Shown one piece after another: positions 35,160 through 64,000 of a stretch of 64,000 nucleotides of DNA (position 1 is the stretch's first letter; the number at the start of each line of letters is the position of its first letter). The DNA comes from Rhodamnia argentea (Eukaryota; Streptophyta; Magnoliopsida; Myrtales; Myrtaceae), in assembly GCF_020921035.1 (NCBI RefSeq), contig NC_063151.1, positions 7,316,001 through 7,380,000 on the forward strand, written 5' to 3'. Below the pieces are notes generated by a model. The model was not told where the DNA came from, did no database searches, and was given only the letters and a program-made list of their open reading frames with translations. The translations under genes and the position numbers were made by a program.

Positions 35160-35227
35160 TCCAAAGTCCTTAGAAGCATCCTCACTAACTTGTTCCAAAG
35201 TCCTTAGAAGCATCCTCACTAACTTGT
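35160..35227. repeat. Perfect 34-bp tandem duplication in MAPK exon 8
   Basis: Two identical units, 35160-35193 and 35194-35227, starting TCCAAAGTCCTTAGAAG. Since 34 is not a multiple of three, it shifts the MAPK frame. Taking one unit away restores the family reading (...ASKDFGVVDAISSYPSKAIRPPPRVP). Confidence 0.95.
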
Positions 35228-37394: not shown

Positions 37395-37619
<225 letters not shown>

Positions 37620-38173
37620 TTAAAAGGCCCAAAAATAAGAAGTCGAAAAGAACTGAGCCAAAAAAGAAGAAGGAAGAAAGCGTAAGTATCTGCACTTAGC
37701 AAGAGCTTTCTGCTAGAGCATCAACATGAGCGAAGAAGCCAGAATTGTCAGAGTAGATGGTAAGCTAATGACAAACCTGTGTGCATGTACTTCAAAGCTC
37801 GTAGCATTTGATAAAGGAAAAATTGGTGGTGTTCTCTAGTCAAATCGTCATTAGCTTTGATCACTTGGTGAAGATCAGACTCCATGAGCTCAAAAACGAC
37901 ATAAATATCTTTGAATTCCCTCTTCGAGGTTGGCAACATGATGCTCTTGATTTCAACAATATCAGGATGTCGCAGAAGCCTGAGCAACTTGACTTCTCGA
38001 AGGATTCGAATAGCATCAGAAATGTGCTCAAAGATACCATGTATTTTCTTTATAGCGACTTTTTCCCCAGTATGCGTGTCGATGGCCGCACAAACAACTC
38101 CATAGCTTCCCTTGCCAATTACCTCCAAGATTTTGTACCTGTTGGCATCTCCATACTCAGTGAAAAACTCCAT

Positions 38174-39055
38174 CTCCTTCAGCAGCAGACGACAAAAATT
38201 AGCCGTTTCAGACTCGAGCCAAAAAAATTTTGTTATGGTAAAGAAAAGAAATTAGAAATGGGAGGCATTTCACAACTAGACACCAGCTGAGAACAAACAA
38301 CTCGCAAGGTACAGCAAAGCACTAAAAGTGAACATTTCCACCACGATCATCCTGGAGGAGTCTTGAACACCATGAAAGTCCAGGAAACATAAAAAGGTTC
38401 AACAGGAAAATCTATCACATTATGCATCGTGTCCTGGACCCATCTCCAAAAAAAAAAAAAAAAAAAAGTTTTCCAAGAACGAGTTATAATCCATCAAGTG
38501 GATAAGCTACACGAGTTCAGTACTGCTACCGCAGATCTTCCACCCAAGATCTAAGGAAAAACTTCACATGAAGAAAGTAAATATATAAACGCTTCGAGTG
38601 GAGAAATTCGAAGAAAGCAAATCAACAAGGCCAGGGCTTACGACCAACATAACTTACTTCTTCAAAAGCAGACTAAAAATCAAAGAGATGCAACATAAAT
38701 TAAAGTTTCTATAGGCGGGGTGAATGTGAGGTGTAATCTATATAACTTTTCAAAATCTGGAAGCTAATTACACAGCAGTGGCCAAAGTTCAAGGGGGCAA
38801 TTCTTGCCAGACGTCATGACGTCAAAATAAACACATATCGTATTACATGATATCCAACACTCATTTGTGCGGTTCTTTAATTTAGATTTAAAAAAAATTC
38901 AAAATAAAAAGAACATGTTGACGGACCACTAACGCGATTAAAATTATTTAGATACCATCTCTGATAATGTTGGGTGAAAAATTTATTTTCATTCGCTGAC
39001 TTTCAGAATAATATTTGGCTTTTTTCCGATTCTGTAGTTATACGGAGCTATAGCA
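38174..39055. other. MAPK 5' region / spacer to the TNL gene
   Basis: Presumed leader and promoter of the MAP kinase, with an A-run of about 16 near 38450. No further LRR coding sequence for the adjacent TNL gene is recognisable here. Confidence 0.5.
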
Positions 39056-42000: not shown

Positions 42001-43497
42001 CTTGTTGATCACATTGACTACATTACCCAAAAGCATAAGAGACTGCCCGCTCCTAAAACAAAAAAGAAAAATTGTGCAAAAACAGCTTATTCACATTGGA
42101 GAAGTCAATGGCCGCCCACATGCTATAATGACGCATTCTAGGTGTTAATTTGCCTTATGTTACATCCAAATTTATCAATTGCCATATTGTGTGCGCACGC
42201 GGGGCCACACCAATCGGAGGCCTCAGCGCAAGCATCGACGTTAGGTCAGAGGTGGGCGACGGGGTCGCGTCTGACCTGGTCCAGATCGAGGTTGCCCAGC
42301 CTCGATTTGGACCTCCTGCGAGCTCTGGAGAGCTCCCGTCCCCGAGACGACGGCCCGTCATTCTTTACATGTTGTCAGGATGCTATGGCTTCTATTGATT
42401 GTCTGGAATGATTTTTTTTTTTTTTGTGCTGATTTCCTTACGTGGGGTTTCTCGAGGAGCACACAGAGATGTGTAAAGTAGGAATCAATTGCTGATTTCT
42501 TTTCTCCCGTTTCCCCAGTAAATAGATACTGGAAACTGATACTTCTATCACGAGCTATAGAGATTTCTTGGATCGAAATTGGTGAGAATGCAGATCAATA
42601 GTGGTGCCCTTGAATATTTCGTAGCCTACGAGACAGTGAAGAGGAAAAAATGGTCGGAAGGAAAACGTAGGTCCATGTAAAGTCGAACGAGAGCAGCAAT
42701 TGAAGGTAGTTTTCAATTTTTTTCTATTACCAAAAAGAATAAAAAAAAGGGAAATGCTTTCACTTTCAAGGATGGAACAATCTCAACCATAAATACATAC
42801 ACCATTATCACGTGTTTTGCATAAATCACTCGTTAATTAAGAGATCGTGTGGTTAGAAATATTTGACAGTACTATCATATTGTGAAGCTAGCAGTTTCAA
42901 AAAAAAAAATTATATAACAGGACAACCTTCCATCCTCAAAAGAAAATATATACAAAAAGAAAAGAAAAAAGAGAAGATAGGGATCTTAAAAAAGTTTTAC
43001 CTTGATTTCACGGTCCATCCCTTGATTTCGCCAACCTCTGTAAGGGCCGCTCTCCACTCGTTGACTTCGTCTGGAAATTGGTTCTCGTGTTCCATTAAGG
43101 CATTGCTATATATTGAAGTTTTAAGTTTAACATCGCCAGATCCCACGTCGAAAAAAATGGGAAGAATACTTTTTTTACCCTTTGATTCATACATGCTCTT
43201 CACCATCTGCACAAGTTCCCGAAGGCACCATTTACTGGAAGCATAAGTTTGAGAGAAGGTTGGTATATAGATTGTGGAGTTGTTGATAGCACTTCGAAGG
43301 TTCTCATCGATCTTTTCACCGAAGCGGATTTTTTCATTGTCCCTGAATACGCGGATTCCAACATCTACCAAGTCGCGGTAGAGGAAGTCTATAAATCCAT
43401 AACGAGTGTCTGGTCCTCTGAAATTCAAGAACACTTGATACTCTCCTCCCGATGCTCGTGCATCGTCACTTCTCGTTCCGGCCTCTGCATCTGCCAT
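39056..43497 (-). CDS. TIR-NB-LRR immune receptor, short LRR
   Basis: Exons 43497-43001 (TIR), 41168-40061 (NB-ARC), 39899-39618 and 39529-39056 (LRR) join in phase to about 786 residues. TIR motifs: YQVFLNFRGPDTRYGF, IRVFRDNEKI, IPTFSQTYASSKWCLRELV. NB-ARC motifs: P-loop GMGGIGKTT, kinase-2 VLVVLDDV, RNBS-B GSRVIITTRD, GLPL (GGLPLSIEVIGS), CFFHNKK and an MHD motif (FWMHDELIALGREIV). LRR repeats follow (LRVISLTECDGITTIPDFSKC, LIELNIEWCKGLTDLPEEVG, LSHLSLQGCCKLSKLPGSLG). TNLs are intracellular receptors of pathogen effectors acting through NADase-active TIRs. At 786 aa the LRR is short against the usual 1000-1200, so the 3' end may be truncated. MADAEAG (43497) is preferred as start over an upstream in-frame ATG (43623). 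Confidence 0.88.
41169..43000 (-). other. Intron 1 of the TNL gene, with a GC-rich island
   Basis: 1.8-kb intron between the TIR and NB-ARC exons. It is AT-rich except 42190-42370, a GC-rich patch of unknown origin. No nested gene is recognised. Confidence 0.6.
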
Positions 43498-43796
43498 AGC
43501 TAAGAATCTTCTTACGGTCCAGAGATCTCCTCTCACTTTAAGAGAAAAAAAGGTTGGTGCGATGTGGCCAATCTGAGAAATGAGGTGAGGTTTTGGATAT
43601 GAACAAGCGCAAGCGAGTGCCAATGCCTTAAATACTTGGCCGGCTCACCTTAAAGTCAAATTTGATTGTGTATTTCCCACCTAACGTTGTGCACTAGAAG
43701 GATGTGACGGTCCAATGGGAAAGAGAGACAGAGCAGTGCCATCAAGAAGGATGACTTTGAAATTTGAATGAAGTGCCATGAACGAGTTCACTTTTA

Positions 43797-43975
43797 TTTT
43801 TTTTTATAATCGAAGTTTCTCACGTACAATGAACTATTTTTGGAGGTGGTGGGAATATGCCAATACCATTAGGTAAGTCCCCAAGACGTGGTCGTTGGGA
43901 GTCGAACCTGAGACTTTATCAGTTTAATTGTTTAAGGCTCAGGAAACTCAACTAACTCGTCCAACGTCTCATTGG
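43797..43975 (-). mobile_element. Possible tRNA-derived SINE
   Basis: On the minus strand, sequence with an exact tRNA B-box (GGTTCGACTCC, about 43895-43905) runs to an A-rich tail (T-run at about 43797 on +). Size and layout fit a plant SINE. The A-box and target duplication are not convincing, so the left and right borders are approximate. Confidence 0.4.
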
Positions 43976-45945
43976 CCATTTCACATTTTTTTAGACTCCT
44001 TGGGAGACCATAAAGGCAAATGTGTAAATAAATAATGGAACCATCACGCGAGGTTTTTCTAAACAACGTCCAATCCACCGCCGAAAAATCTATCACAAAA
44101 GAAAGTTGTGACGGTCCAAAGGGACTCGAATCATATCGCTCTGGATCCCGCCATGCAACTAATTCCCCCTTTTCTCGCAAAGCTCCACAAAGAAATTTTT
44201 AAATGATTTTTTAGGAATAATACCACCAAAAACTAGAAATTATTTTTGCTGGGTATCAAAATCCAAACTCCTTTTTTTTTTTTTTGTGTGTCATAAAGAA
44301 TCTAAACTTGTACCAGTGTGCTAACACATTGCAATCTCATAAATGAGACAACATATAAAAATACTCCATGAAATGCATGCTGCAAAATGATTTCTTGAGA
44401 TTTGGATTCTCTTCCCACTTTAGTCAAGTTTCATATGACACGATCACAAGGAGAAATGTTTCTACTTTCAGTGAAAAATTAGCACGCAATTTTAATTGAA
44501 CTGTCAATAGATTGACTTCAGCTTTGCCGCACCATGATCCGACAAAACCTAATATGGGCAAAAACTTGGAGGCGAGGCTCCTCAAGCTATCTTTTTGAGC
44601 GACTATCTACTGCATCTAGAGGGAACGAACCGCAGACGGTTTCAAAACAAGTGAATTGAGACTCATCTTTTATTGGTTAGGATTCATAGAGTTGTAAGGG
44701 AAAGAGCGTCACTCTACCACAATTATAGGACTTCCCAGATAAATGTTTTACTAGCTACCATATGGAGGCTTCCTTCCTTCGTATTCTCGCATAATTAATC
44801 TCTTTGTAATGCTAGAGAATTCTTTTGAGCTTTTGTACCTCATTTGATTAATGATACTATTTACACCCAAAAAAGTGATAATTAAGGAACGATTTTCTAA
44901 GTCGTCGTTGTCTTGGACCGCCATCAATGTCCGTCGTCTGCTTTAGAATCTTTTATTGTCCTAAAGGTCCGCCGTGCCAACTAAAATCAACAACTTTTCA
45001 TTTTATTTGAATTCCACGTTTCGCACACCAAAGTGGAGTGTCCCAGTCAGCTAAGACTGATGATTACTTTAAACAAAATGCTCCATACTTTTTAGATGGT
45101 ATGTGTTTTTGAAGTTTCATGTTCTTAAAGTTTGTACGAATAGACGCCTTACCCAAAAAAAAAAAAAATTGTACGAATAGACACCTCTCTTTGAGAAGAA
45201 TAATTTTTATAGACATTTCTTTTTCACATTTATAGAGTTAGCTTAGTGTTGTTTTAAATATAACAAATGCATACACCTCTTCTCAGACAACATGTTCTAA
45301 CAGACACGTTTCTTTGTATTTCCAAAAGCAATTTAGATAACGTTTGTTTTTAAATAGTATGGTTAACATGTGATTTGCACTTCCTCTTTTCTTTAAAATT
45401 GAATACGTCATGTAATCTTATTAAATTTTACTGCACACTAATTCATGTATAGAATTACCTCTCATACACAATAGATTTTTCTTGCTTTAGACAAAGCTTA
45501 TATCTCAAACCTTTTTTAGTTCATGACATTCTTCATTTCCATTAATATTTTTTCTATCTCAATGTTGAATAAGTATCTGCCTAATTTGGTAAGGATTATT
45601 ATTCTATGCAACTCCAATGTAAACCTTCCTAACGGGTTCAACATTGAACATGTGACATGTGTGCTTCGAGATAGCTATGCAATAGAAACCATCAACACGT
45701 TAATTATCCTATGAAGTGTAAATTATATTTTGTACCGACGGTACACCTAATAAAAATTCTGTCAACATACCTTGTTTTAATGTTTGAATTCCTTCTATTA
45801 AATCAACAAATAACCAACAAACTACCTCACATGTATCACTCTACAAATCATCCAACCCTTTATTGATTAGTCGAGTTTAAGATTTATGCGCTTATCTTTT
45901 TGTTTCATTATGTTGACATGTTATCTTTAATTTATTTTGTTATTA
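43976..45945. other. AT-rich intergenic DNA
   Basis: About 2 kb without a supported gene; scattered homopolymer runs and no clear terminal repeats. Confidence 0.45.
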
Positions 45946-46190
45946 TTATCTCTCTCTAATGAGTGTTCCTCTTTTCATGTGGAGAAAAGCCAATGATTTC
46001 AGGAATGATTTAGTAAGAGCATCTTGCCCCACCTTGACTTCATAACGAAATTGCTTATCGTGCTTTAGAAACGCATCCGGGCACAGCCAAATCTTAAGCA
46101 TAGCATCGTCAAAAGTATGGGAAGGATACTTTTGTTCCCTTCTTATTTCGACGTGTTGTCCACCACAACATGTACAAGCTGGCATTATTC
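45946..46190 (-). pseudogene. TIR-domain relic
   Basis: Minus-strand sequence shows, in two frames, KSILPI and AFLKHDKQFRYEVKV-QDALTK. These match the TIR stretch KSILPIFFDV...NALMEHENQFPDEVNEWRAALTE of the neighbouring TNL gene. Only about 80 codons survive with at least one frame change and no start, so it is a decayed TIR fragment from a former tandem TNL. Confidence 0.6.
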
Positions 46191-46324
46191 ACAAAAAGTA
46201 TGGAAGTGGCAACATGTCGTTTAACATGGACAAAAAATCATGTACTTTACCAAAAGCAAAAGACAACCCCAATATTATAAAGGATCTAAATGGATTTGTT
46301 GGGCAGAAGTGACTTGGTGTCGGA

Positions 46325-47270
46325 TGTTAGGATTCAGCGCACACTCATAACGAAGTAAAGTGTAAAAGCAAGAAAGAGAAATCGAAATACGAGATTTTAT
46401 TCTGGTCCACCCTTAAACTAGGGCTACATTCAACAGATGATTCCACTATAACTAGCGTATCGTACCTCTTATTACATCACTCAATTACAAGAGAAAAAGA
46501 ATACGGATAGTACTAGCTATTCAAGAGCCCAAACCCAAATCACTAATAAAAAAATTACGGGCTTAAATCGAAAAAGTCATCTTGTTTTCAAGAGGCGCCG
46601 CCTCTCTGAGATCCCCGTCGGAGCAGCTCCCCCGGACCCTCACTCGCTAAGCATGAAGAGGGATCAACGTGCTTTCCTATCGCGAATAAGTATGAACCAC
46701 ACCCCAATAGGGCCAATACTATTGGTAAAATGTGGTAAAATTGGATGAACAAAGGAATCGGATTCTAAGGCGTGATAGCACTTTCTTTAAGGAATTATTT
46801 GCCCCACAATATTACTAATGGTTACCAGCAAAATCCTCTAGGATACAACAAAGTCTCAAGCGAGAATATTAAATAGCAATTCTAATATTCTTCGAGAACT
46901 CTCTAGGAAACAATTAGAAACGAAAACTGTATTTCTCTTGTTTTGAGAGGACGAAAATTGAAAGTAGAAGTTGTGAACAATGAACATAATAGTTGAATAT
47001 ATAATGAGAAAAGAACATAGATTTTCGCGTTCGAAAAGGTGTTAATTCTCTTATACCTTTTCATTGTTCGAAAATAGTTTTTGTTTGAAAATTGCAACTC
47101 TTCGTGTCCAATAACTGATAGTTCAAACACACCTCTTCATGTTCGAAACTATACATTCAATCGCACATTTTCATATCTGAATTGGTAGTTATTTCAAAAC
47201 AGACATGAACACTTCAAAGGTTATAAGAGTGTTTTAGAAAATGACCGCCAATTGAATAGACACGATCTTT
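46325..47270. repeat. Candidate solo LTR or LTR fragment
   Basis: Begins TGTTAGGATTCAGCGCAC, followed by GAGATTTTATTCTGGTCCACCC, a layout like LTRs of some plant Copia elements. No partner LTR, coding domains or target duplication were found, so the right border is a guess. Confidence 0.3.
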
Positions 47271-47627
47271 CAAAGGATATAGCCAATTGAATAGACACAA
47301 CCTTTCAAAAGTGGTAAAAGTACCTCAGAAAATAACTGTCAAGTGGGATAGGGTACCTCTTCGTTTGTTTTACAAATAAACCACCAACAAATACTAGTGG
47401 TGATCATCATGGCTTCAATAGTGGCTTGGTGTTACTAGAGGGTAGCAACAAGATACCATGCGGCCGAGGAGGAGAGTTTTGTGAATGATGTTTCGTGGGT
47501 GCGCGACAACAGTGACTTTATGGTCCTGAGAACTTTTAATCTCTACCAAATTATATTGTCATTTATATGATATTGTTAGAATATTAGTCACACGCTCTAT
47601 TTATTTGCTTTATCTCTATTCTTCTTA

Positions 47628-48135
47628 GGGTTAATATCACGAAAAACTCTAAATTGGTACATATGTGATAAATTTATCTCAAGTAATTTTTTACCATTAA
47701 AAATCTTAAATTGGTACACCTATCAAATTTACCCCGAACTGTACACCCGTAACAAATTTAACCTCTGTTAGTTTTTGTTAAATCTAACTATCAAATTGTT
47801 GAATTGGATGGCACATGACAGTTTATTTGTGTACTAGTTTGAGATTTTTACACTTTGTTTGCCACTATTTATCAATTTGAAATTTTTCATAGTATTAATT
47901 CAATTTGGCGGATGGTAAATTTGTCACGGGTGTATCCGTTTGGGTTTTTCATGGTCAAGAAACGTAGTTTATGCTAAATTTATCACATATGTACCAATTT
48001 TTTATGGTAAAAAAAATAGTTTGGCGTTAAATCTATCACAAATGCACCAGTTTGAATTTTTTCGTAGTTAAAAAAATAGTTTGGGATAAATTTGTCACAA
48101 ATATACCAGCTTGGGAGTTTTCATGGTAGTAACCT
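47628..48135. mobile_element. Second member of the GGGTTAATA- MULE-like family
   Basis: Starts GGGTTAATATCACGAAAAAC and ends, inverted, GGTTACTACCATGAAAACTC. Arms consist of ~58-bp units (TTGGTACATATGTGATAAAT / ACAAATATACCAGCTTGGGA). It is related to the element at 56426-57248 but older, without an exact target duplication, and lacks the GC-rich core. Confidence 0.6.
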
Positions 48136-48190
48136 TTTTTTCTTATCTATGAATATCTTCCAACATGATAAAAATGTTGCTAGTTGTTAC

Positions 48191-48697
48191 TAGGAATGAT
48201 TGGTTTCCAGTACGGTCTGATCCCACCCAAGAATCGCCAACCGGATCGGTAGGACCAATTCGGACCGATAGGTTCGGTCCTCGGTTCAGTGCGATTCTCG
48301 GGTGGTCCAAGAAAACCAGTAAAATCGCTCCTTCTCCCTCTCTGTAGACGTCATATCATTTGCCATTGCTCATAACTTCATGAACTGTCTACTTTGCAGG
48401 TTTTATGTGGCAGATGCATGTGCTTGGGATCATTTATAAAGACCTCAAACTAGAGGAATTTTTTAATTAGGGAAGATGGGCACATAATGCTTAGTATTAG
48501 GTTTAGGTTTTGGTTTAGCAAATTTATAATAATAAAATAAAAGAACCGATCATATCTGATTGTTCCAATTCCCCTTGGAACTAGGAATCAAACTGATAGC
48601 AACCGGTTTACAATTTTATAGAATTGGGAACGAGACCGAACCGGCCGGTTCGGTCCAATCCTGGCTATTCTGATTCGGTCCGTTATGCTCAACCCTA
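48191..48697. mobile_element. hAT-like MITE
   Basis: Starts TAGGAATGATTGG and ends CATGCTC-like sequence reading, inverted, TAGGGTTGAGCATAAC. Flanked by near-identical 8-bp repeats GTTGTTAC (48183-48190) and ATTGTTAC (48698-48705). The interior holds GGTTCGGTCC-type words and no coding region. Confidence 0.55.
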
Positions 48698-49358
48698 ATT
48701 GTTACGGTGATAAACAAATGTAAAGATGCTAGACTTAGGATGTAAAGAGTAATTTGGGGGGATGTAAAGAGTAACATGGGGGGATGGGATCCATAATTAT
48801 TTTTAAATTAGGGGTGCAAATTTCGAATTCTTTCTATTATATTTTGACTTTCAAATAAAAGATAAGAAAGTTTAAAAAAATATTCAATCCGGTCTGGTCG
48901 GTCCTTTACCCCATGGAATCGAAAACTAGACCAAAGCAGCAAGTTTGACGGTCTGGGGGGGTTTCCGATTTGGTCGGTCCGGCTTGCGGACACCTATGCC
49001 ATGTTGATAATAATAACAACATGAAAACAAGAGGATCACATCTTTGCGTTGCTCTCTTGAGTCTCGTAGAAGTTGTTTTCTTGAAAGAGCAATCCTCCCA
49101 ATCGTGGTTCTCTCATTCAAATATGGAGCCCATTTACTGCCTTAGCGCGTGAACACGCCATGTCCTTTGGTTGTTCTAAAGTGAAAGGCTCCTACGATTC
49201 TCCTTTATTATAGTTTTTGACTGATATAAACGATCATGTGTATCAATTGAAAAAGGAAAAGAAAAAAAAGGAGTGTCCCGTGCTACTGTAGTCCTTAATT
49301 TTGGGGACAGTTTTTAATTTGGCCATTGCCATTGTGAGACTCGGAATGAACTATGAAT

Positions 49359-49960
49359 GGTCTGTTTGATAACGATTTTGATTTTTTTATTCTATTTTTT
49401 GGAACAAAAAAAAAAGAGAGAGATAAGAAACATGTTTGTTATCGTAAATAATTCTGATTCTGATTCTGTTCTCGGAAACAGTTTTGAAACAAAAACAAAA
49501 ATCACTAAAAAGTTGAATTTGAAAAAAAAAAAGAATCACTTTTAATAATCACAAAAATGACTAAAGTCTCGCTTCTTTTAAAAAGATTAAGCCGACATGG
49601 ACTTCCAAACTTTTAAAAAAAATGAAAAATAGATTTGAAAATTTACTAACAACTAATTTTTTAAATTCATTTTTCTTCAAATTAAATTTAAAAAGGGGGA
49701 GTTAAAAATTTAAAAATAAACGATGGGGGGAACTTAAAAAATAAAAGACTTCAAAATGTTAAAATTTTAAAAAAATTAAAAATTTAAGAGAAAGATCAAA
49801 AATTTTAAAAAAAGAATTCTCGCCATCGTTCCCAGAAATAAAAATTTTGTATAGTTACCAAAGGCGCTCCGATTCTCTCAAAATCATCCACGGAATAGAA
49901 TTAGAAAATATGATTCTAATAAAAATTACTTTTTTGGATCAAAATTGTTACCAAACAGGC
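49359..49960. mobile_element. Harbinger-like non-autonomous element, relative of 13603-15001
   Basis: Starts GGTCTGTTTGATAACGATTT and ends, inverted, GCCTGTTTGGTAACAATTTT. The interior shares phrases with the larger element (GATGATTTTGAGAGAATC, TTTCTGGGAACGATGGCGAG). The target duplication is not preserved. Confidence 0.55.
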
Positions 49961-50216
49961 TCGAAATTGCTACAAAGACAGGAATTAGTTTAGTTGGGTG
50001 ATAATTTTACCGGCAATGAAGGCGTCGACACTTCTTTTGCAAACGTGAATGATTTCCTTGAATTACAAGAAAAGGAAATTCGTCTGAGGGACCATGTTTG
50101 AGTTCATCCAATCACCAAAAAAAAATCCCAAAAAAATGCCCGAGGAAACAGAAAAAATCTACTACAGATAATGATTATTGATTAGTCACCAATTCTTCTA
50201 GAGCAGAGAAAGAGGG

Positions 50217-51236
50217 GAAAACACAAAGGCCAATATGAATGCACATGGTCCTAAATTTAAACTCTTCCATTATTAATTCTTATGTATTTTTTTACGTGTA
50301 GTTCAAGACAATGCCAAGCAAGACAAGTTCTTTTCTACAATTGCGAGGACATGAAAAGAGTACATCAACAGAATCGCTGCTGCAAAATGGTATTTGTATA
50401 TATGGTTCTTGCAGCTGGACATGGTGGAGAAAGAGGACTCAATTTCTGAAAAGATTGGACTTCGGACATCTGGGATGAAGAGAATGCACAGCTGGATTTT
50501 CCCTTTTAATTAATTGATCTTCCTAATGATGAGACAAAATGCCAGCAAGTTTCTACAGAATTTCGGATTCTCAAGTGGTTTTATTTTCTTAATTTTTGGG
50601 CATGAACAGAAATTTCTGCAAAATTTCATAATCTCTTTGTGCCCTGATCTTGATAGAAGATCGTCAACTGCATTCCTGGTTCCTCAAAGACTAGTAGATT
50701 CGCAGAGTGCCTCTACACTGAGACATAGCCCAAGTTTGTGTAAACTTCGATAACAAATTCTCTAGTGTATTCTTTTAATTCTGTTTTTTTATTATTGTAG
50801 TCTGCCGTGTAGATTGTTTGCTTGAGTTATTTTCCTAGAATTGGCGTGCAATGCCTAACATCAAGGAAAATAAAAAACACAAAGGCCAATATGAATGCAC
50901 ATGCTCCTAAATTTAAGCTCTTTCATTATTTATTCCCATCTACTTTTGACGTGTAGATTAAGGCAATGCCTAGCAAAGTTGGACTTGGCTTGCATCTTTT
51001 CTACAATTGCTAGAACACGAAGAGAATAAATAAACATGAGGTGCAGTAAAAGGGATTTGTTTATACGGTTCTTGCAGCTCAACATGGTGGAGAAGATGAA
51101 CCAGATCCGGAAAAGATTGGACTTTGGCGAAGTGCACCTGGGATGACGAGAAAACATAGCTGGATTTTACCTGTTAGTTAATTGATCTCCGTCTAATCAG
51201 ACCAAATGCCAGCAAGTTTATGCAGGATTTCCTTTA
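50217..51236. repeat. Pair of ~355-bp direct repeats
   Basis: 50217-50575 and 50878-51236 share many blocks (CACAAAGGCCAATATGAATG, GGTTCTTGCAGCT, AAAAGATTGGACTT, AATGCCAGCAAGTTT), clearly diverged copies in the same orientation with about 300 bp between. No coding sequence recognised. Confidence 0.8.
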
Positions 51237-51858
51237 TTTCGTGAAAAATAAATAATTTAAAAAAGATGTTTTTAAAATAATCTTTTATTTCACTTAACAT
51301 AGGCAACAGATGAAAAATGTTTTCACGTCGAGAAAAATTCATGTGTAAACAATTTTTATGGGCATCAAAATATCATTTGCTCTCTTATTTTTGCAAGCCA
51401 TATAAGCGATTAGTTTAAGAAAATATTTTTTAAGTACTTTATTTTCAGCGAAACAATTAGAGCCTAAGTTTGAAATAGAAATTTTCCTTTCTCTACCTTC
51501 ACATTTTTTAGTATTCTTCTAAAACTCGGTCATTCATTTCGTATCATTACTATTGTTTATTAAGCGATCAACCATTTTTCATAATTAAAGCTAGACATTT
51601 TAATTATGAAGTGTGAAATAATAAAAGATGCATTTATTGTCCAAATATCCTTTATATATTTGTATGGTATTCTTCTCTTCAAGGTAGGCAATCATTTATT
51701 CTAGCATAGAGTGCATATTTGCACCTACGGACGTTTCTCTTCAGGACAGTACATTAAAAAACACATACATCTCCTCTTTTTACTTGTAGTATTTTGCCTT
51801 ATTTAAGTAGGCTGGTTGCCATGATGATCGTGGCTTTGAAAATGGGTTGGCATCACCA

Positions 51859-54270
51859 GAGGTAGGAGCTGATGTGGCTCGGGGTGAAGCGCTCGTCATC
51901 CGGAGAGAGCTATCAATGGATTCAATGTCCAATTATGAAACCTTTGAAAAAAAAAAGAATAAAATGAAATATAACTGCTACACTCGAAATCGGAGGCAAA
52001 TGACTTCATCACTTCAGCACAGGGTTTGGGGTTTTCACCGACTGGCTAACTCATGCTCTTATTTGAAATTAACTTGGACACTTCAAGTCTTATTTGAAAT
52101 AAATCTATTTTGAGAAAATGAGGGTGACTAGGGCCTTATTTAGATTTTTTTTTTCTTTCAAAAAGGTATTGTAGGCCATATTGCAAATCATTTGAATTTT
52201 CTGAAAGCTTTGAAGAACTTATTTGAATCAACGTAATCAAAGAGTTTTCAAGTTTCAACCAAGCTGGAATGTCATGTCTTCGCGAGTCCATTTCGTCCCG
52301 CTATTGAATAAATCAATAAAATCAAGTATGATGTGCTTGAATACTAAAAGATTCTTGCCACTCACACATGAGAGAATTTTTAACGAAGAAAATATCATAT
52401 CATAGCTGTTCATTTGGTTCAGTCCTTGAAAATTTGAGATGCCAATACCTTTTTGTTTAAATCGATGCACAAGCGATTTCCCGATCTCTCCTTGGTCTAA
52501 AGAATTTTGATTAATCTATAAACTTACAAGTCAAAATTATTAACATAGCAAGGCTTCGTTCATTTCTCGAAAACTGGCTTCCAAAAAAATATTTTCTGGA
52601 TTTCTCAGTGCTCGTTTCACGGAAAATAGAAGATTCAAGCAACATATTTTTCACGAATGGAAAAAATACCTCCAAAAGTGGTGAAAATAATTTCCTTTTT
52701 TGATAAGAGGAAATCATTTTCTCTCATCTTTCATCCCTCCAATTCTTCACATTCATTTTTTTAAATATTTAAAAAATTCAAATTTTAAATTTTTTTATCT
52801 TATATTGATATTAAATATTTATTTTTTCCTTTTATTTTTATTTTTATTTATTTCTTCTTCTTCCTCAATCGGCTTCGGTGAGCTCGAGGCTCGCCGGATC
52901 TTGACGGGCTCGCCGGCTAGCCACAAGCCAGCAAGCTCGCTTGAGGACGGTAACCGGTTTTCACCGTGGCCGACAATCGACCAAAAAAGAAGTGAAAATA
53001 AAAAATGAGAAAAAACAAAAATTCGAAAATTTAAAAATAAAAAGAAAACATAAAAATAAAATAAAATGAAAAAAATGAAAAATAAAAAAAATTATTAGAA
53101 AGATTGCATGGAAGAAAATTAAATTCGATTTTCCATACAATGAAAAATATTTTTCAGTTCATTTTTAGGTTTCATCCGAACATAAAAAAATATTGTCATT
53201 TTCTTGAAAAATGATTGCTTGAATAATATTTTTCGAAAACGACTTATTTTTCGCGAAACGAACGGAACCTACGTAAAATTTCTCATTTTTATGATAAGCG
53301 GCTAGTTAAAAATTCCATTGACCAAGATGTTCGATTTGTTTTTTAGAAGTTACTAATCAGACAAAAGACCTACCAAACTCCCACAAAGAACTGCATTTGC
53401 ACATGCATTAATCCAATTTCCTTTTTATCTCTATACGTATAATAACCTAAGTACATAATCTGCCAGCACATTTTCAATAGGACTCAAGGTCCAGCAATCC
53501 ACCATCTGACCCGAACTTCGGGCGGGTAGGATTTGACCAAACTTCCAACCCAGCCGAGTTCGGATACGGGTCGATCTACCATTTTTTTTTTTTCCCCGTT
53601 TTCTCCGGATCCTATAAAACCGAGAGCCCGTTTTCGGTTGACCCGCCGAATACCAACCAATCCCCATCTCGTCATCGTCCGACTCGGATCTTACCCAACC
53701 CAACCCATCGTCCGAAGGAGAGTCCATTTCCCGACCCCCTAACCCTAATCTGTCGGATCCTCCGATCGGACTCTGGACCAGCGCGACCAACTTCCGTTTC
53801 GGTTTTCGCCGGTAAGACCTTGCCTCTCCTCCATTTTCGATCCCGCCGATGATGCATTTCACGTCCTACGTTCCGATTACGCGCGTTTGGTTGTGTTCTC
53901 GCCCCCTTTTCCCCCCACTCTGTCTCCCGGACTCTGTCTTGACCGACCCGGTTTGTTACCCTACCTCGAAGAAGAACCTGTTGAAATGTTAATTGAGGCC
54001 GAGAATTGCGTTGTGGGTGATTAAGCGCTTCGTGCAGTGACTGATGTAGTGGAAGATTGGAACGAATCATTTGCTGGGGCCTTGCTTTTACCTGGATTTT
54101 TGTACCCGTGTGCTGAATTCTGGTCATTTTGGGACATGGAGTTGAAACAGATGGTGTAGTTTAGCTGTGTATGTTTCGCAACGAGTCTGATAATTGGGGT
54201 CGCGCAATGCGTCAGGATGATTAGCGACAGAGATGAGTCCGGCGTGTTTTCTTGATCGAATCGAGGAATT
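51859..54270. repeat. Segmental duplication copy B, left block
   Basis: Copy of 3883-5950 in the same orientation, including the TATA box, leader and first splice donor of the BED gene. It stops at GAGGAATT, inside the first intron of that gene, and the BED coding exon is absent. Confidence 0.92.
53613..53620 (+). promoter_or_regulatory. Orphan BED-gene promoter (TATA box) in copy B
   Basis: TATAAAAC with the downstream leader and the donor CCG|GTAAGA (about 53811) kept, but the gene it served has been deleted. If still active, transcripts would run toward the hAT element and SWEET2-B. Confidence 0.5.
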
Positions 54271-54279
54271 GTTTAGCTG
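54271..54279. other. Deletion junction with templated filler
   Basis: Between the left-block end GAGGAATT and the right-block start TGCATAACC lies GTTTAGCTG. With the next bases it matches GTTTAGCTGTG at 54159-54169 just upstream. The junction removes the equivalent of 5951-16860 of copy A. Confidence 0.75.
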
Positions 54280-54973
54280 TGCATAACCATAATGATACAT
54301 TTTCAAGGATTGTTTGGCGACTAATGTTACCAAAGTTAGAACTAAGTTTATGCTTTTGATTTAAGAGCTACTCTCCTAGTCGAATCTCTCTATATATAAT
54401 AAAGTAAACCCAAAAAAAAATTGCAATCTCGAATTTTTCCAATAACTTCATGTTGAACCAATGACAAATTACAATGGTACTATATACCGTAGGAGGAAAA
54501 CAATTGTAATTCAAAACTAAACGGAATCTCCAACATTTCAAATAAGGCAGACCTAAGTAGAGGGGGCCATTTGGGCCCGTGGGCCCGGAACCGGCCCGTT
54601 GACCGGGCCCACGGTTCCGGAATCGTGGGAACCGGCGGTTCCGGGCCGGTTCGGAACCGTCAAAATAATAATAAAAAAAAAAAAGGGGCCCGGGGGCAGA
54701 GAGCCGTTAGGCTCTCGCCCCGGCCCGCCGCTAACCCCCCTCCCCCCTCTCCCCCCTCCTTTGGGCCGTTGCTTTATAAAATAATAATAAAAAAAAGAAT
54801 TAAAAATAATTCTTGCCTATAAATACATATGCTTCCCCTTTCATTTTTGTCACAAATTCTCCGAACAATCTCTCGAATTCTCTCCGAAATCCTCTCAAAT
54901 CGCTCAAATTCTCTCAATTCTCTCAATCCCGACTCAATTCTCTCATTCGGATTTCCGATCAATTCTCTCAAAA

Positions 54974-57970
54974 ATGGCAAGTGGAAGCAGAAATGCTAAC
55001 AAGGGCAAGATGACTATGGGAGATTCCGAGTATCCCATTCCTGAATATGATCCTCGTGAGTATGCAAGTTGGGAAGACGACGACGATAATATCAACTATG
55101 TCCCGATTCCGAACGTCGAGCACATCCCAACACAAGAAAGTCTTCATCCTCCCACTGGTGTCGAAGAAACGTCAACGGCAAATGAGCCGGAACGGAAGGG
55201 CCGAAATAATACATCGGACTTGTGGCTACACTTCGACAAGGTACGTGATGAAGTCGAAGGTAAGTATAATATAAAATGTAAATATTGTTCGCAAACATAT
55301 AAATTTACGAAAGGAGACGGCTACGGAACATTCCGTCGGCATTTGACGAAAAAACATCCAACGCAAGCGGGGATCGACAATACGCAATAACAAATTTCTG
55401 GGTACGCCACTTCTAATCATCATCCTTTATTTCGTTTCATTGAAGCACTTTATAAACAAACATTAGGTGAATATGTTGCCCTTGATCATGCTCCGTTTAA
55501 TACTGGTGAAAATTTTAATATGAAATATTTGATAAATACTGCGTTGGTTCTGCAAGCGCCAACTATTTCAAAAAATACTCTTAAACACGAAGTTTTTCAT
55601 CTTTATAAAAAAGGAAAAAAATCTTTCGCAAAATTTTTTGCGGAATTCAATGGACGTGTGCATATAGGTAGCGATATTTGGAGTGATCCTTGGCAAATTC
55701 ATTCTTATATGGGTGTCACGTGTCATTGGATAGATGACAATTGGATGATTCAAAAAAGACTTATTGCATTCCGAGTTTTTTATGAAAGCCATTCGGCTCA
55801 TAATATTTATAGAATAATTAGGCAGGTTTTAGAAGAATATAATTTAATAAATAAAGTATTTTCAATTGGTTTTGATAATGCCGCCGCAAATACCGCTTCT
55901 ATTCCCGAATTAGAAAATATTTACAAACCCACTTTTGGCGGACAATTTTTTCACATTAGATGTGCTTGTCATGTTTTAAATTTATGTGTACAAGATGGTT
56001 TACGAACTCTTGACACTTCTCTCGCCCCAATAAAAAGTGCAATTAAATTTTTATGAAGTCGTCCCCAATGTATGAAATCATGGGGAAAATTTTGTAAACA
56101 AAATGGGAGAAGGGCAAGAAGATTTCCAAAAGATATTCCGACTAGTTGGAATTCTACGTACGAGTTGCTTCGGCAAACTTTTGAATATAAAGATTTATTA
56201 TGTATGTTTATTTCACAAAATATTCCCAAATTACTTTACTTCTTCAACATTGGGACGTTTGCAAGAAAATTTTAGATATTTTGAAAATTTTTAATGATGC
56301 TACTAAGACTTTATCTAGTATTTATTATCATACAACGCATTTATTTTTAATAAAGTGTGTTAATATTGGTAGTGTTTTTAGTGAATATGAAAATGATACC
56401 GAATTAGGTCGAACTATTTTAATAAGGGTTAATACCATGAAAAACCCTAAACTGGTACACCTGTGACAAATTTACCCCAAACTATTTTTTTGACCACGAA
56501 AAACCCCAAACCGGTACATATGTGACAAATTTACCCCAAACTATTTTTTTTACCACCAAAAACCCTAAACTGGTATATTTGTGACAAATTTACCCTAAAC
56601 TAATTATTTTGACCACGAAATACCCTAAACTGGTACACATGTGACAAATTCACCCCCCGTTAAATCGTCACTTTGTTTTGGCTTTTGGTCCGCTACGGTA
56701 TGGGAGGACACAACCCTTGGTGCTCCACCCATCCGTGCGCTATGGATGGTGTCATCGTATAAGAAGAGACTACTGAAGGAAGGAGGTTCACGATTTGACA
56801 TAAATAGGTAAGCCTTAGGGGCAACCAGCGGCGAAGATCCCGACCATGGAGACCATGGGGATAACCCGGTAACAATGATACGGAAAGCAAGTCTTCGATC
56901 TTACAAAGAAAGGCGATGGCTCGAAGACCTCGTCTCTAATGCTTTTGCCTTCCACGAGACCGTACCTGTCGGATCCGAAGATCGCCTATCTCAAATTGAT
57001 AAACCTGTAACAAATAGAGGGTTAAAACCCCATATTGGTATACCCGTCAACTATCACATGTCACTAAATCAACAATTTGATAGTTAAATTTAATGAAAAT
57101 TAACGGAGGGTAAATTTGTCACATATGTACCGGTTTAGGGTAAATTTGTCACGGGTGTACCGGTTTAGGGTTTTTTGTGGTTAAAAAAATAATTTGGGGT
57201 AAATTTATCACAAGTGTACCAGTTTGGGGTTTTCCATGGTATTAACCCTTTTAATAATGCGAGAAAAATGGTTGCATTATTATTTGCAAATTCCTCTTGT
57301 CTATTTAGTTGGTATTATTTTTTATTCACGTGTTAAATTAGACGGTTTACAAGATTATTTGAATGTGTATTATCATGATTGTTTACATTTGGAAGATTCA
57401 ATAGATATTTCAAATATATTAGGACATGTTAAAGAATCTATAGTAGCATTATATGGAGAATTTTGTAGTAGATATGGTTTAAGTGATTCTGGATCTTTAC
57501 AATCTACCGCCTCACGTAGCGAAGGTGGTAGTTCACTTAGTAGATGGTATAATATGCTTAAGAGTAGGCAAAAAAAAAAAAAAGGGGCAACAGGTAGTAT
57601 TTATGAATTAGAAAAATAGTTAACCACTCAATTTGAGTTTTGTGATGCAGAACATAGTACTGATTTCGAAATCCTGAAGTGGTGGAAGAGTCACCAAATC
57701 GAGTATCCAGTTCTCGCCCTCATCGCTCGTCAAATATTAGCAATCCCTTCTTCAACGGTTGCGGTTGAACAAGCATTTAGTTACGGAGGATTAATTTTGG
57801 ACTCTCGCCGTTCAAGATTAAGCCCGGACTCTGTGGAAGCTCAAGCTTGTGTCGGCTATTGGATGAGGGCGAAATATCGACACCAAGAGTTAGATCGTGA
57901 ACACGAATTTTTTAGCAATGATGTTGGAGATACCACCGCCACGGGTACCATAACGGGTAGCGACGATTGA
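54974..57970 (+). pseudogene. hAT transposase pseudogene
   Basis: Starts MASGSRNANKGKM. A BED finger (LWLHFDKVRDEV...CKYCSQTYKF...FRRHLTKKH) lies at about 55215-55365. The catalytic body (SDIWSDPWQIHSYMGVTCHW, SIGFDNAAANT, FFHIRCACHVLNLCVQDGL) lies at 55520-56056. The hATC region (WWKSHQIEYPVLALIARQIL, STVAVEQAFSYGG, EAQACVGYWMR) ends near 57970. Disabling changes: TAA at 55388-55390, TGA at 56054-56056, a frame change near 56240, and an 823-bp insertion at 56426. Confidence 0.9.
56426..57248. mobile_element. MULE-like element nested in the hAT transposase
   Basis: Exact 9-bp target duplication TTTTAATAA (56417-56425 and 57249-57257). Terminal inverted repeats start GGGTTAATACCATG and run about 65 bp. 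The arms are tandem ~58-bp units (GGTACACCTGTGACAAATTT type), four on the left and three inverted on the right. Removing the element and one duplicate leaves the transposase frame open (ELGRTILI to MREKWLHYY). The core 56680-57000 is GC-richer and unlike the arms, possibly captured DNA. Confidence 0.9.
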
Positions 57971-59674
57971 CGATGAGGTAAGTTGGGGTTCTCAATTGTA
58001 AAAAAACTACATGGACTTTGATTCTTCTATCCCCAAGAAGATATGTAGGCGCTTAATGATAATTCATTAAGTTCAAGCCCATTCCTTTTTTTTTTTTTTG
58101 CCCATATTTTATTACAATGTACAATTTAATCGTATTTTATAATTTATAATTTATTATATTTATTTTATTATTTATTATTTTAAAAATTATTATTAAAAAG
58201 GAATCGGAATGAACCGGAACCGGCCCGGAACCGGAACCGGAATTATACACGGCCGGTTCTCGAACCGGAACCGGCGGTTTCACCGAACCGGCCGTGTCCG
58301 GACCTAAGTAAGTCCTTAAACTACTTCGTCTGAGACCTTGTCCGGATCCCTCAAAGAGAGTATTCTCCGCCATTAGGAAAGAAAAATATATGATTGGCAA
58401 TTGTGGGTGGTTTCGTAAATCTCTATTTTTTTTTTCCAAAATCAATTTAAAACTACATTATATTTAGTAAGTAATCTTTCTAATTTTCATAAACATCTGA
58501 ATTTTTCTCCGCCCAGAAAGAAAACAAACCTTAAAAAAAAACTTAATTTTTTTTTTTTGTCTAATATGCTTTTTAGTTTATTTTTGTCACATAAAGCGGG
58601 TGCTCCATCTTTATTGCAGGTAGTAATTGAATAAAAAAAGGCAGGAGCCACGAGTGTCCCATCCGCAAAACAATGCCTGACGTCACCCACTAGATCCATC
58701 ACTTTTTGTTCTCGTTTGATCATAATTTCCTCGTAAATATCCTAGTTTTAGGTAAGCACTCCTTCCAAGTTTGACTTTTTTCTAATTTAAGTTTGTATGA
58801 ACTTAAAGGTCAGTTTTCTTTCTTTCTTTCTTTCTTTTGAACATCAACTGATGGCTAGTTTGTTTTGAACTTCTTACTTTATGTAATTCGTGCAATTCGA
58901 GAGTAAAATCTCGAATGCATCGGATCAATTTTGGGAAAATCGCCGGAAGATATGAATTAGTTGAGTATGCGTAAAAATCGGCTAGGACACTACGTGACCG
59001 GTATAACGCTGTTAAAAGTAAATATTGCTGCAAACAATCAAGTAATAGCCCAAAACGGTATAACGCTCGTTTCGAGTACATAAATGCAGTTGAATAGCCT
59101 CAGATAATTTTTTTTTTTGGGTCTTAGTTAATTAGTAATTGAGTCTTTTCTTACTTTTTTTTGTTCTGTTTAATGATCTTGTTTTTGGGTTGACTATTAG
59201 CAAAAGGAAAAATTATAAGGACAGATTCAACCAAAGCACAGAAATTACAAAGCATGATCACTCAGCTACTACGAAACTGCATGAACCATTTGAAGAAGCC
59301 CATGTGCCTTTTGTCTGTTGAAGCAGACATCGTTGTCTTCTGCTTCTTGTCCTGTCTACTGTGGAAGGACCATTCATGGTGGAGTAAACTGTTGGTGTAG
59401 GGTCATTCGACTTGGGAAAAAGAAAAAATCTTAGTATTGATTTTTGGATTAGATAGTCCGAACAGGGGGTCGCAGGCTTCTTTCTTCTCGAAAAGGACAA
59501 GATCATCATCATTTGATGTAATGTCGGAGATGTGAAAACGCCTCTATTTTTGCTTCCGCCAGTGAACCCACCAAGGCATATTCTTCTGCACAAACAGGCT
59601 CTTCACTTTCTCGCAGAAAGGCGCAGACTTGAATGACCCAGACCCAGAAAGCTTTGCGCGGCGTTGAAGGAGCC

Positions 59675-61862
59675 ATGACTCCCGGGCATTTGTATTTGAT
59701 CTCCAGAGTTTGCAAAGATGCAGCTGGGGCAGCTGGTACTTTTCCTTCTCTCTCTCTCTCATATTCCCGAAAATTTCAAGTGTTGTGGTTGATTTCTCTG
59801 GGTTCCTTTTCTATTGTCTTTCTTTCTTTCTTTGAAAAGGTTTTTTTTTTTTTTTTGGGTAACCGAGCTGTCCGCGCAGCCGGCGAGCTATGGCTTACAC
59901 CAGCGGTGGAGCACAACTATTCCTCGAGGGGCTAGCGCAACATCCCACCGCCACGACCGTCCGCTTAAATGACCGACCGACGCCTACGAGTTTCGAACAC
60001 ATGACCTCTCATAAAAGGAATTGGGCTCAAACTATCGCGGCCACTCCACTGATAAATGGGTTCTTTGAAAAGGTTATCAGTTCTAGATTTTGCAAAAATC
60101 TATGCGCATATGTAGTTGAACTCGAAACTTGGAAGCTGAATAGAATGCCCTTTTGGCGATCTTGGGACTAGGTGATTCCATGAGCTTATTCGTCATCTGA
60201 AATCACAGCAGCTTTAAAAAGCTAGTCGTGTACCCAGCACCCAAATAGAAGAAGAACAAGAAGATGGGTTGGTTAAAGGGGAAAATTGTATATTTGAATT
60301 TAAGAAAACGGGGTGGTACTTACGAAGAATGCCAATTGGGACTTTTTGCTCTCACGCAGAATTGTTTCTTTTAGCGTTGATGCGAGATTGGAAAACTTGA
60401 GACCTTGATGTTAGCCAAAAGCTCGTCTCTGCGTTTACTTTCAAAGGCCTGCAACAGAGAGAGAGCTCTTGAGATAGTGTGTTCTTCATCTTTGTGCTGT
60501 GAGATCATTAAGAAATGCATAAGGATTTGAAATTTGACTAACAAAGGATTTGCAGTACTTTCCATTTGTTGAAGTAACTGTCGGCCGATATAGGAATCCA
60601 GCAACACCATAAGAGATTCGCATGCAACCCAAGTAAAAGCAAAGGAGAGATTTCCACCAATCTATGAAATTATACACATATATACTTGTCTTCACATTTT
60701 ACATGGCAAGGGTTTGATTGACATTTGGTTTCAACGATATGTTACAGTAGAGCCTGACCAATGCAGTGTTGCAGGAAATATCTTTGCTATTGGCCTGTTC
60801 GTGTCACCAATGTAAGATGCAAGATCAAGTACTTCCATTTCACTTCTAAGTTACAAGCTTCTCTATTGAACATGTTCTTGAATTTCCTAATTTGCAGATC
60901 GACATTCAGAAGAATTGTCAGAAACAAATCAACAGAACATTTCTCTGGCTTGCCATACATATATGCCCTCCTAAATTGCTTGATTTGCATGTGGTATGGG
61001 TCGCCCCTTATATCATGTGACAATCTCCTGGTTATGACGGTCAATTCAGCGGGTGCGGTGTTTCAGTTTGTATACATAGTACTCTTCATAACATATGCTG
61101 ACAAAGCAGGCAAGGTTAGCTCATGTTTTTTTAATTCAAAGGCACGTCTTCCTTTCTGCGCGCACCCGTATTTTCTAGATTTATTGATAGCTCGTGTTGA
61201 AAAATCCTTGATATTGTTGTCAGGTGAGGATGACAGGATTTCTCCTGGCAATTATTGGCGCTTTTGCAGTCATAGTTGCTGGAAGTTTGCAAATACCTGA
61301 ACTCGCCCTGCGAAGGATAACTGTGGGGTTATTGAGTGGTGCTTCTCTCTTATCAATGTTTGCTTCTCCGCTTTTTATAATTGTACATTCATTTAGTGAC
61401 TGCTTGTATTTTATTTATTCATCAAAGTGGCACTTTATTTTATCTAACCTGCTATCGAGGACCTTAAACAATGGGACCTCTATTCCAGAATTTGGTGATC
61501 CGGACTAAAAGTGTCGAATTCATGCCATTCTATCTCTCTCTTTCCACATTCCTGATGAGCACGTCTTTCCTTCTCTATGGATTGTTTAATGATGATATCT
61601 TCATTTACGTAAGCTTCTTAAACTCGTTGAACTATTCTTATAGTTATCTGTAATGCTAATTTCAATTCACAGTTTTCCCTATACCATTTACTTTGAAACT
61701 GACACTCATTAACCAAAAGTGGTCTTGCCCTTTTACCCTGCATATTAGGTTCCAAATGGGATTGGAACTGTCTTGGGTATCATACAATTGGTATTGTACT
61801 TCTACTTTAAGCGTAGACCTGAAGATAAGTTGAAGGAACCTTTGGTGGCACCAAATGCATGA
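59675..61862 (+). CDS. SWEET2: SWEET2-type bidirectional sugar transporter, copy B
   Basis: Exons 59675-59735, 60775-60811, 60898-61114, 61224-61382, 61489-61608 and 61749-61862 correspond one to one to copy A and give 235 residues with no frame break. About seven substitutions are seen by eye (for example ISRDN to ISCDN, LLVLTV to LLVMTV, AVVVAG to AVIVAG, RRMTV to RRITV, SLISM to SLLSM, TILGI to TVLGI), mostly conservative. Intron 1 carries a SINE, and the intron 4 donor is GTACAT instead of GTAAGT. Protein-level constraint seems kept, but splicing may be impaired. Confidence 0.9.
59841..60060 (-). mobile_element. tRNA-type SINE in intron 1 of SWEET2-B
   Basis: 220 bp including the T-run on the + strand (poly-A tail on the element strand). 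A B-box-like GTTCGAAAC lies at 59990-59998. It is flanked by the exact 13-bp duplication TTCTTTGAAAAGG (59828-59840 and 60061-60073). Copy A (near 18710) holds a single uninterrupted target, so insertion followed the duplication. Confidence 0.88.
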
Positions 61863-63638
61863 GCATCAGCGCTTCGAAAAAAGGTGTTGTTCGTTTCCGA
61901 TTTGTTTGCTTTTTTCTTTCATTGACAAAAGCTGATTCCTACTGTCTGGCAGTATAGTTTCCCAATTGATCCTCTCCCATAGTGCCCACGTGCTCTGAGT
62001 CGTCCTTAGGATGGTTAACGTAGTTTGGTGTCGTGAGTGTCTTGCTGCTTGTTATATCTCTGCTGCCCCAATTTCAGCCAAGAATTATGACTCTATCTTC
62101 GTCCTGTTATGAAAACTGTTGTCCCTGTAATGTTGGTGCAAATTCTACCTGAGTTGTATTACCTAAAGTATTCTTTTACTTATGTGGGCAGCTTAGCGTT
62201 TTTTGGAACTTAAAACTGAGAAAGGTAGTCTGTTTTTATTAATTAGCAGCAAAAAGAGCTCAAAGAAATCAATTTGATGATGTAGTGTCAAGGATTTTTC
62301 TTTTTCCTTTTTTGCTCAAACTGCAAGTAGTTACTGTCCCAGCCATTGTTATTACTCAATATTGTTCAGGAGTAAAGCATTAGTGCTAGAGATTTTGTGG
62401 ATGGCACTTTGGCACCTGTAATGAGGATTTAACAGCTTGGTCATTCGAGTTAAGTTAAGAAGCATGTCAACTGTTTGATTTTATTTGTTTCCTCGGTTTG
62501 ATCAGGACTTGCGCGGAAGTAGGGTAACAAGGTGGGTGTCAGCGCTCATGATAACTGTCTAATTCACTACTGGTGAATTATGTCAGAGATTGCATTGCTG
62601 ATTAAGACTGATGCTGTTAAATTGGAAAGCCCTGTGGCACGGCTCAACTATATTAGAACTGCGTCTGTATTGGCAATGGATGGATAAATAAGTTGCCAAG
62701 GTGACGGGAGAAAACTGACATTGCAATACCGCCTGGAAGAATTCAATGAAGAAAGATAGCCTGGCATCATTCGATTCTCTTCCAGTGGTCAGATAAGAAC
62801 AGGACTTTTTCGAGAAGACACTGTGTAGCATATCCTTAGAGGTCAATCAATTTCACTTTCTTTTTAGATTAGATATTCTGGAGCTACATAAGCCAGTGAA
62901 TGGCTCATCTCCAAGAGAGTTCTCATTCTGATCGAAACTGTTTCTCTTGAAATGCCTCAAATGAATGAGCTCCAAGATCTCCATTCATCTGGTTAGGTCT
63001 TTAATGCTGCGAAAAGAAACCAAATCCTGGATACCTCTAGGACACCTGACCAGGCAATCTGATCTACTTTCTGTGTATGAACTTAAGCTGCCAAACATAT
63101 CTACTGATATGCTGTTCAGTTCATACTAGTTTATGTGAAGATTGTCTGATCGAAAAATTCGTTCACATAGGAGAGGTTACAATATCCAGGAGAAACCCCC
63201 TTTGCTTACAGCTAGAAGAATAGTCGTAAATTTGACAAGCAAATCACAGCAATTCCTTCGGAGTTGTTCTCCCACCACCGGTTATTTTCTCCTGCATGTA
63301 ACACAAGTTAAACCATGTCACATGCGAGCAAAGTATATCAGCAATAGTAGACGGAATGCCAGACTCTTAAGATGTTCCCATAGGAATTGCTCGACATCAT
63401 ATTCGTTGGCTCTGTCTCAATGGTAGAGTTTTTGCATGAATACTAGATTCCTGTGTTAAGCTGTATTCTACATTCTCATACACTTCACAGCATACCGAGA
63501 TAAAATATCCCTGGGTTTTCCAACTGAACAGTTTTATTTTGGCCAATTATGAACGTTCATCCAATGATATCTGCCATGCACCCTGAAGAAATGGTCTAGC
63601 CTAATTAATTGCTTGTATTCCAGGACTAGTCGGACGCT

Positions 63639-64000
63639 TCAAGTGATTCTATCTCTAATATCTGATAAAAAAGGAAAGGAACAAGAAAAGAAGCAGAGGA
63701 TGACGACCTGGTTTGTACTAGCATCCTCTGACGAACCACTAAGGGGCTGACCTCGCTCATTGGACAGAATAAGCCCGCTAAACCTCGGGAGCTCACACTT
63801 CTTCCTCATCAGTATCGGCCTGTGCCACACGGGCGACTCCGAGTTGTGGCTCTGCCACCCCACAACATCACCTTCCAATGCAAGCAGCATCAGCGGCGGC
63901 AGCAGCCTCTCCCCCCAAGCCCCTACATTCCTCTCCCCCCACTTGCTCCCTCTGCTCCACCTCAGCAAACCCATCAACACCCTCTTGATTGCAAGCCACC
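63639..64000 (-). CDS. Small membrane protein, copy B, cut by window edge
   Basis: C-terminal ~115 residues of the paralogue of the 22352-22909 gene; its membrane segment lies beyond the window. The frame is open, but several changes hit the otherwise conserved core: PILMGEKCEL to PILMRKKCEL, LILYDERGRPL to LILSNERGQPL, and VWQRP to VWHRP. This suggests relaxed constraint; it may be decaying. Confidence 0.6.
   Translation of the reverse strand, partial: WLAIKRVLMGLLRWSRGSKWGERNVGAWGERLLPPLMLLALEGDVVGWQSHNSESPVWHRPILMRKKCELPRFSGLILSNERGQPLSGSSEDASTNQVVILCFFSCSFPFLSDIRDRIT

Follow-up and report, generated by a model that had tools for sequence, protein, structure and literature searches.

The window analysed here is a 64,000-nucleotide stretch of the Rhodamnia argentea genome, C2:7316001-7380000, in an assembly of 346,658,060 bases and 74 contigs. 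Its content is that of a plant chromosome, with TIR-NBS-LRR (TNL), SWEET, RHM-like and copia sequences present, and it holds a gene block (copy A) followed, across a spacer that largely resembles a cluster of resistance genes on C4, by a second copy of the same block (copy B) that runs past the end of the window. The window was compared with itself as part of a 204-kb region that includes 60 kb upstream and 80 kb downstream (E-value threshold 1e-20; printed matches of at least 250 bases or at least 250 bits), and positions outside the window are given as window equivalents. The names RHM and SLEEPER follow domain make-up rather than trees. The main features are as follows.

3882..38670, plus strand: copy A, delimited by self-comparison, with the BED gene, an RHM-like gene, a SWEET gene, a small membrane-protein frame, a DUF7705 gene, a MAP kinase gene and a private copia element
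38668..51851, no strand assigned: spacer of 13.2 kb, mostly homologous to a TNL cluster at C4:11.509-11.558 Mb
51858..64000, continuing to window-equivalent 72966 (L009), plus strand: copy B, delimited by self-comparison
6384..8504, plus strand: SLEEPER-like gene for a BED zinc finger, hAT-derived protein, 706-aa open frame, named from its domain make-up and not from a tree; in A only
9853..12033, minus strand: RHM-like gene with epimerase and RmlD domains, 726-aa open frame through a probable short intron; in A only
12785..16474, plus strand: 232-bp tandem array (12785-13597) and partial copies (15005-15361 and 16269-16474)
19407..20291, plus strand: exons of the SWEET (MtN3) gene, copy A; B counterpart at about 60758-61650
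24158..25921, plus strand: DUF7705 gene, copy A; B counterpart outside the window at window-equivalent 65469-67226 (L009:1469-3226)
35838..38251, minus strand: MAP kinase gene, copy A; B counterpart at window-equivalent 70145-72552

Extent of the duplicated block

Self-BLAST aligned the two copies in five matches within the window, all of them direct repeats: A 3882-4128 with B 51858-52102 (92.7% identity), A 4138-5950 with B 52458-54270 (93.7%), A 16861-17139 with B 54280-54558 (92.5%), A 17133-18716 with B 58303-59842 (92.0%), and A 18702-22695 with B 60061-64000 (94.3%), the last being cut by the window end. Even the weakest has an E-value of 4e-100, which excludes chance as the source of the similarity. 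Beyond the window the alignment continues as A 18702-27553 with B 60061-68799 (95.0%) and A 34456-38670 with B 68795-72966 (97.6%). Homology starts abruptly at A 3882 and B 51858 and stops equally abruptly at A 38670 and B 72966, the latter about 9 kb past the window edge, and such long copies of high identity with sharp ends are those of a segmental duplication. In the 346.7-Mb assembly the leader segment 5000-5950 has two matches, which are A and B themselves.

The earlier note on this DNA had described duplicated blocks in the same order and orientation, and the direct repeats bear this out, with starts that agree to a base. Its limits need revision: the A position facing the window end is 22695 and not 22740, and the duplication, although real, is longer than was claimed, since it reaches A 38670 and B 72966. 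A simple adjacent tandem repeat is ruled out by the 13.2-kb spacer between the copies.

The probable 10.9-kb deletion in copy B

The largest difference between the copies lies between the second and third matches.

5951..16860, no strand assigned: stretch of 10,910 bp in A that is absent from B (self-BLAST)
54271..54279, plus strand: 9-nt filler at the B deletion junction

The absent stretch accounts for the lack of the BED gene body, the RHM-like gene and the tandem array in B, as the earlier note had stated. The B junction reads GAGGAATT, GTTTAGCTG and TGCATAACC in succession. Together with the next two nucleotides (TG), the filler is an 11-nt copy of 54159-54169, 112 bp upstream; when 3000 fillers of 9 nt were drawn at random, 5 had a match of equal length no more than 200 bp to the left or right, with both strands considered. 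A filler copied from nearby sequence into a deletion junction is what templated-insertion end joining leaves. Templated insertions are known at plant breaks, many of them derived from within 100 bp, according to the available part of PMC5217109, and the polymerase theta (Tebichi) end joining of Arabidopsis described there likewise produces deletions with short fillers copied from nearby. In contrast to those cases, the deletion in B is natural and 10.9 kb long, its pathway is presumed, and its template lies at 112 bp.

The order of genes at older paralogous places also bears on the polarity of this difference. At C2:27.62-27.64 Mb, an RHM relative (C2:27636754, plus strand; 84% identity, 90% in a second segment) and a SWEET relative (C2:27623850, minus strand; 70%) are colinear with A in reverse and keep its order and relative orientation; a 146-bp stretch between them (75%) matches A 13625-13769, in the part missing from B. 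Similarly, at C7:7.0 Mb a BED relative (C7:7020757, plus strand; 54%) is separated by about 26 kb from an RHM relative (C7:7049590, minus strand; 83%), and the two are oriented to each other as in A. In Arabidopsis, as far as the consulted part of the sources goes, the locus numbers of MPK19 (At3g14720), SWEET2 (At3g14770) and RHM3 (At3g14790) are close together, and RHM2 (At1g53500) stands beside MPK18 (At1g53510), again by locus numbers; we infer that the genes of the window are orthologs of these.

Because RHM-SWEET and BED-RHM linkage recurs elsewhere in the genome and the B junction carries a templated filler, the sequence comparison supports B as the deleted copy, which upholds the earlier note's claim of a deletion in B rather than an insertion in A, on better grounds than the cut within a putative first intron of the BED leader from which the note argued. 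Very probably, the locus arose by a segmental duplication, after which B lost 10.9 kb. Several points weigh against it. The ancestral state is deduced from older paralogs and locus numbers and not from an outgroup genome. Each older place keeps only a gene pair: no SWEET match was found near C7:7.0, no BED match near C2:27.6, and no MAP kinase match near either; at C2:27.6, 20 kb was read. There are in-frame stops, two in the RHM relative at C2:27.6 and one in the BED relative on C7, so that these relatives may be decayed or may have been read through introns. Finally, the filler template at 112 bp is slightly beyond the cited 100 bp.

The opposite polarity, with the 10.9 kb inserted into A and the original state kept in B, draws on the fact that only two copies of the locus were found, so that the A/B comparison alone cannot polarise the change, and on the older places holding only pairs of the genes. 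It is nevertheless highly improbable, as no target-site duplication or inverted termini were seen by eye at 5950/16861, the 9-nt templated filler sits in the B junction, RHM-SWEET and BED-RHM are linked elsewhere in the genome, and RHM and SWEET are close in the Arabidopsis locus numbers just cited. The same inspection by eye, which found neither target-site duplication nor terminal inverted repeat, led us to reject a transposon insertion as the cause of the difference. A displaced copy of the missing part elsewhere in the assembly appears unlikely from searches with its BED, RHM and array sequences: among the scored candidates listed, the best other BED match was 54% identical, RHM matches reached 84-90%, and the array occurred only in A.

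The spacer and the origin of the two copies

The spacer joins each copy of the block at a short junction feature.

38668..38670, plus strand: 3-bp microhomology GCA at the junction of A and the C4-related segment
51852..51857, plus strand: 6-nt filler ATCACC at the junction of the C4-related segment and B

Open frames of TNL type lie on the minus strand at 39056-43644, and TIR, NB-ARC and LRR domains occur there in this order as separate open frames, the domain set of a TIR-NBS-LRR protein. The start of the spacer (38668-39600) matches C4:11524333-11525268 at 95% from the A breakpoint onward, and a second C4 place (11658910-11659817, 92%) starts matching at the very same base. The far end of the spacer, 50901-51851, is 94-98% identical to C4:11509248-11510443 in the opposite orientation, and segments 39717-42439, 42489-43574, 43859-46575 and 50035-50950 match C4:11.510-11.558 Mb at 92-96%. 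In the search that gave these last segments, 37 of the 51 matches listed fall on C4 (5 at 92-96%, 32 at 71-79%, 8.3-12.2 Mb) and the other 14 elsewhere in the genome, all to one repeat at about 46.7-47.4 kb; 39 of 6190 candidates were scored and the window's own place was absent from the list, so closer places could be missing. Since the cluster sits on C4, transfer was likely from C4 to C2. A complication for this reading is that the C4 pieces stand in two orientations (plus at 38668-46575, minus at 50035-51851) with repeats between them, so that the source was not one simple C4 stretch as it stands today, and the spacer looks composite in its sequence.

The right flank of B has no counterpart in A. 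An MsrB-like frame recognised there by eye yielded no informative paralog for flank synteny, its two other matches covering 31 aa. On the far side, upstream of the window (window-equivalent -39386 to -38109), a 639-bp sequence is repeated directly in neighbouring copies that are 97.7% identical.

The extent of the block, its breakpoints, the fillers, the C4 homology, the private insertions and the RHM-SWEET and BED-RHM linkage elsewhere in the genome are seen directly in the sequence. Which flanks are original, how the DNA was repaired and in what order the changes came about we infer as follows. A block of about 28 kb, that is, A with the 10.9-kb part included and the later copia element left out, would have been duplicated directly on C2, the join between the copies being filled by the 13.2-kb spacer, mostly homologous to the C4 TNL cluster; the original left flank would have remained with A and the original right flank with B. 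A later break in B would have undergone resection and been sealed by end joining of the microhomology (polymerase-theta-like) type, with loss of 10,910 bp carrying the BED gene body, the RHM-like gene and the array, and with a 9-nt filler copied from 112 bp away. With open frames for the BED and the RHM-like gene still present in A, the loss was probably tolerated, as in the usual fractionation of duplicated genes.

Duplication and C4 segment may have come from one repair event, to which we give slightly less than an even chance and which would have duplicated six neighbouring genes and brought a resistance gene to a new chromosome. An end broken just after the MAP kinase gene would have copied or captured 13.2 kb from the C4 resistance-gene cluster. 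Through a short homology it would next have moved to where its own block begins and copied that block a second time. A two-step origin, in which a plain tandem duplication came first and the C4-related TNL segment was inserted later at or across the junction, is about as likely, likewise falling just short of even. Resistance genes are known to move ectopically (PMC6102362, in the part available) and the composite look of the spacer suits such a sequence of events, but the second event must then land at the junction, and the spacer/C4 identity of 92-98% overlaps the 92-94% between A and B in the 5' part (BLAST), so that no age difference is visible. An assembly artefact, in which the second haplotype of A was set next to it as B, would fit the direct orientation, the single contig and a part of the block that is only 1.4% diverged. 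We regard it as very unlikely: homology begins and ends abruptly, the 5' part has diverged by 5.1%, both copies carry private insertions, the 204 kb contains no N, and no flank-to-flank match appears among the printed self-comparison matches (E 1e-20). Between spacer and flank they include a single match, 47628-48132 to 77161-77661, with 71.8% identity and a repeat-like character.

Private insertions, divergence and genes of the block

Three insertions are each confined to one copy.

27554..34455, plus strand: Ty1/copia element in A, with a long terminal repeat (LTR) pair of 431 bp aligned (93.7%) and a 5-bp target-site duplication AGTTT; target-site duplication and last base set by eye
54559..58302, plus strand: hAT transposon in B, with an 8-bp target-site duplication GACCTAAG within a 9-bp direct repeat, set by eye
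about 59843..60061, minus strand: insertion of about 220 bp in B, similar to a short interspersed nuclear element, with a poly-A end on the minus strand and the direct repeat TTCTTTGAAAAGG; class assigned by eye

The insert in A is a Ty1/copia element by its LTR pair, RVT_2 domain and 5-bp target-site duplication. Its site in B is clean and empty, which together with the target-site duplication places the insertion after the duplication of the block. The insert in B has BED and hAT dimerisation domains, an 8-bp target-site duplication and multiple copies, as expected of a hAT element, and its site in A is empty. A search with its first 640 bases and flank listed 51 matches, a number that counts fragments and the element's own place (40 of 1254 candidates were scored), and comparison of its ends by eye revealed no clear terminal inverted pair. 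The stretch at about 56425-57249 is absent from all seven relatives fetched (L002-L008), and by this comparison it is a nested insertion in B's hAT element. This nested element of about 820 bp has inverted, partly tandem ends, and similar repeats occur at 47616-48140. In addition, 355 bp of B (52103-52457) stand where A has about 10 bp (4129-4137), likely a small deletion with filler in A.

With gaps set aside, the comparison of the copies shows 197 differences in 3850 sites (5.1%) for the 5' part, 300 in 8707 (3.4%) for the middle and 57 in 4170 (1.4%) for the MAP kinase part. Between the two copia LTRs there are 27 differences in 431 sites, 23 of them transitions. In Fisher tests, which treat sites as independent, the LTR divergence exceeds that of the adjoining MAP kinase part (p = 4e-9) and of the middle (p = 0.005), and does not differ significantly from the 5' part (p = 0.3). 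Along the block (A 18717-38670, B 60076-72966), divergence between the copies drops below that of the copia LTRs, although this element inserted after the duplication; the pattern suggests that A and B underwent gene conversion in their 3' half. A higher mutation rate in methylated LTR DNA and constraint on exons may also contribute.

Among the genes, the compared SWEET and MAP kinase frames are open in B too. The DUF7705 copy of B changes frame at least at two places relative to A, where the frames are open, and because of these shifts it looks degenerate. The small membrane-protein frame was named by eye and has no Pfam match. The BED gene of A combines zf-BED, hAT-like RNase-H and dimerisation domains, the domain set of the SLEEPER family, and its nearest other match is 54% identical (among 74 matches listed; 63 of 1656 candidates scored). 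The lack of a close copy among the matches listed is what one would expect if the gene were domesticated and not a live transposon. The domesticated SLEEPER/DAYSLEEPER hAT genes (PMC3499209, PMC4029315, each in the part available) share its BED, hAT RNase-H-like and dimerisation domains; the likeness rests on domains and on the lack of a close second copy in the matches listed, and not on a phylogeny. All three assembly matches of the 232-bp array near the RHM-like gene lie in A.

As in plant segmental and tandem duplications with fractionation in general, the copies are direct, genes were lost from one of them and transposons are private to each, whereas here a spacer of 13.2 kb with relatives on another chromosome stands between the copies. 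In the ectopic NBS-LRR segmental duplication of common bean, resistance-gene DNA was likewise copied elsewhere, according to the available part of PMC6102362, whereas here such DNA separates the two copies of a gene block unrelated to it. A full-text literature search for Myrtaceae, tandem duplication and microhomology returned no paper, which says little. All processes at this locus are of known kinds and no general principle is changed. The divergence between A and B alone can mislead as a clock, because here an insertion private to one copy seems older than its surroundings. The locus shows, resolved to its junctions, how resistance-gene DNA may reach another chromosome next to a duplicated block of genes, and is an example of one duplicate later eroded by a probable end-joining deletion.

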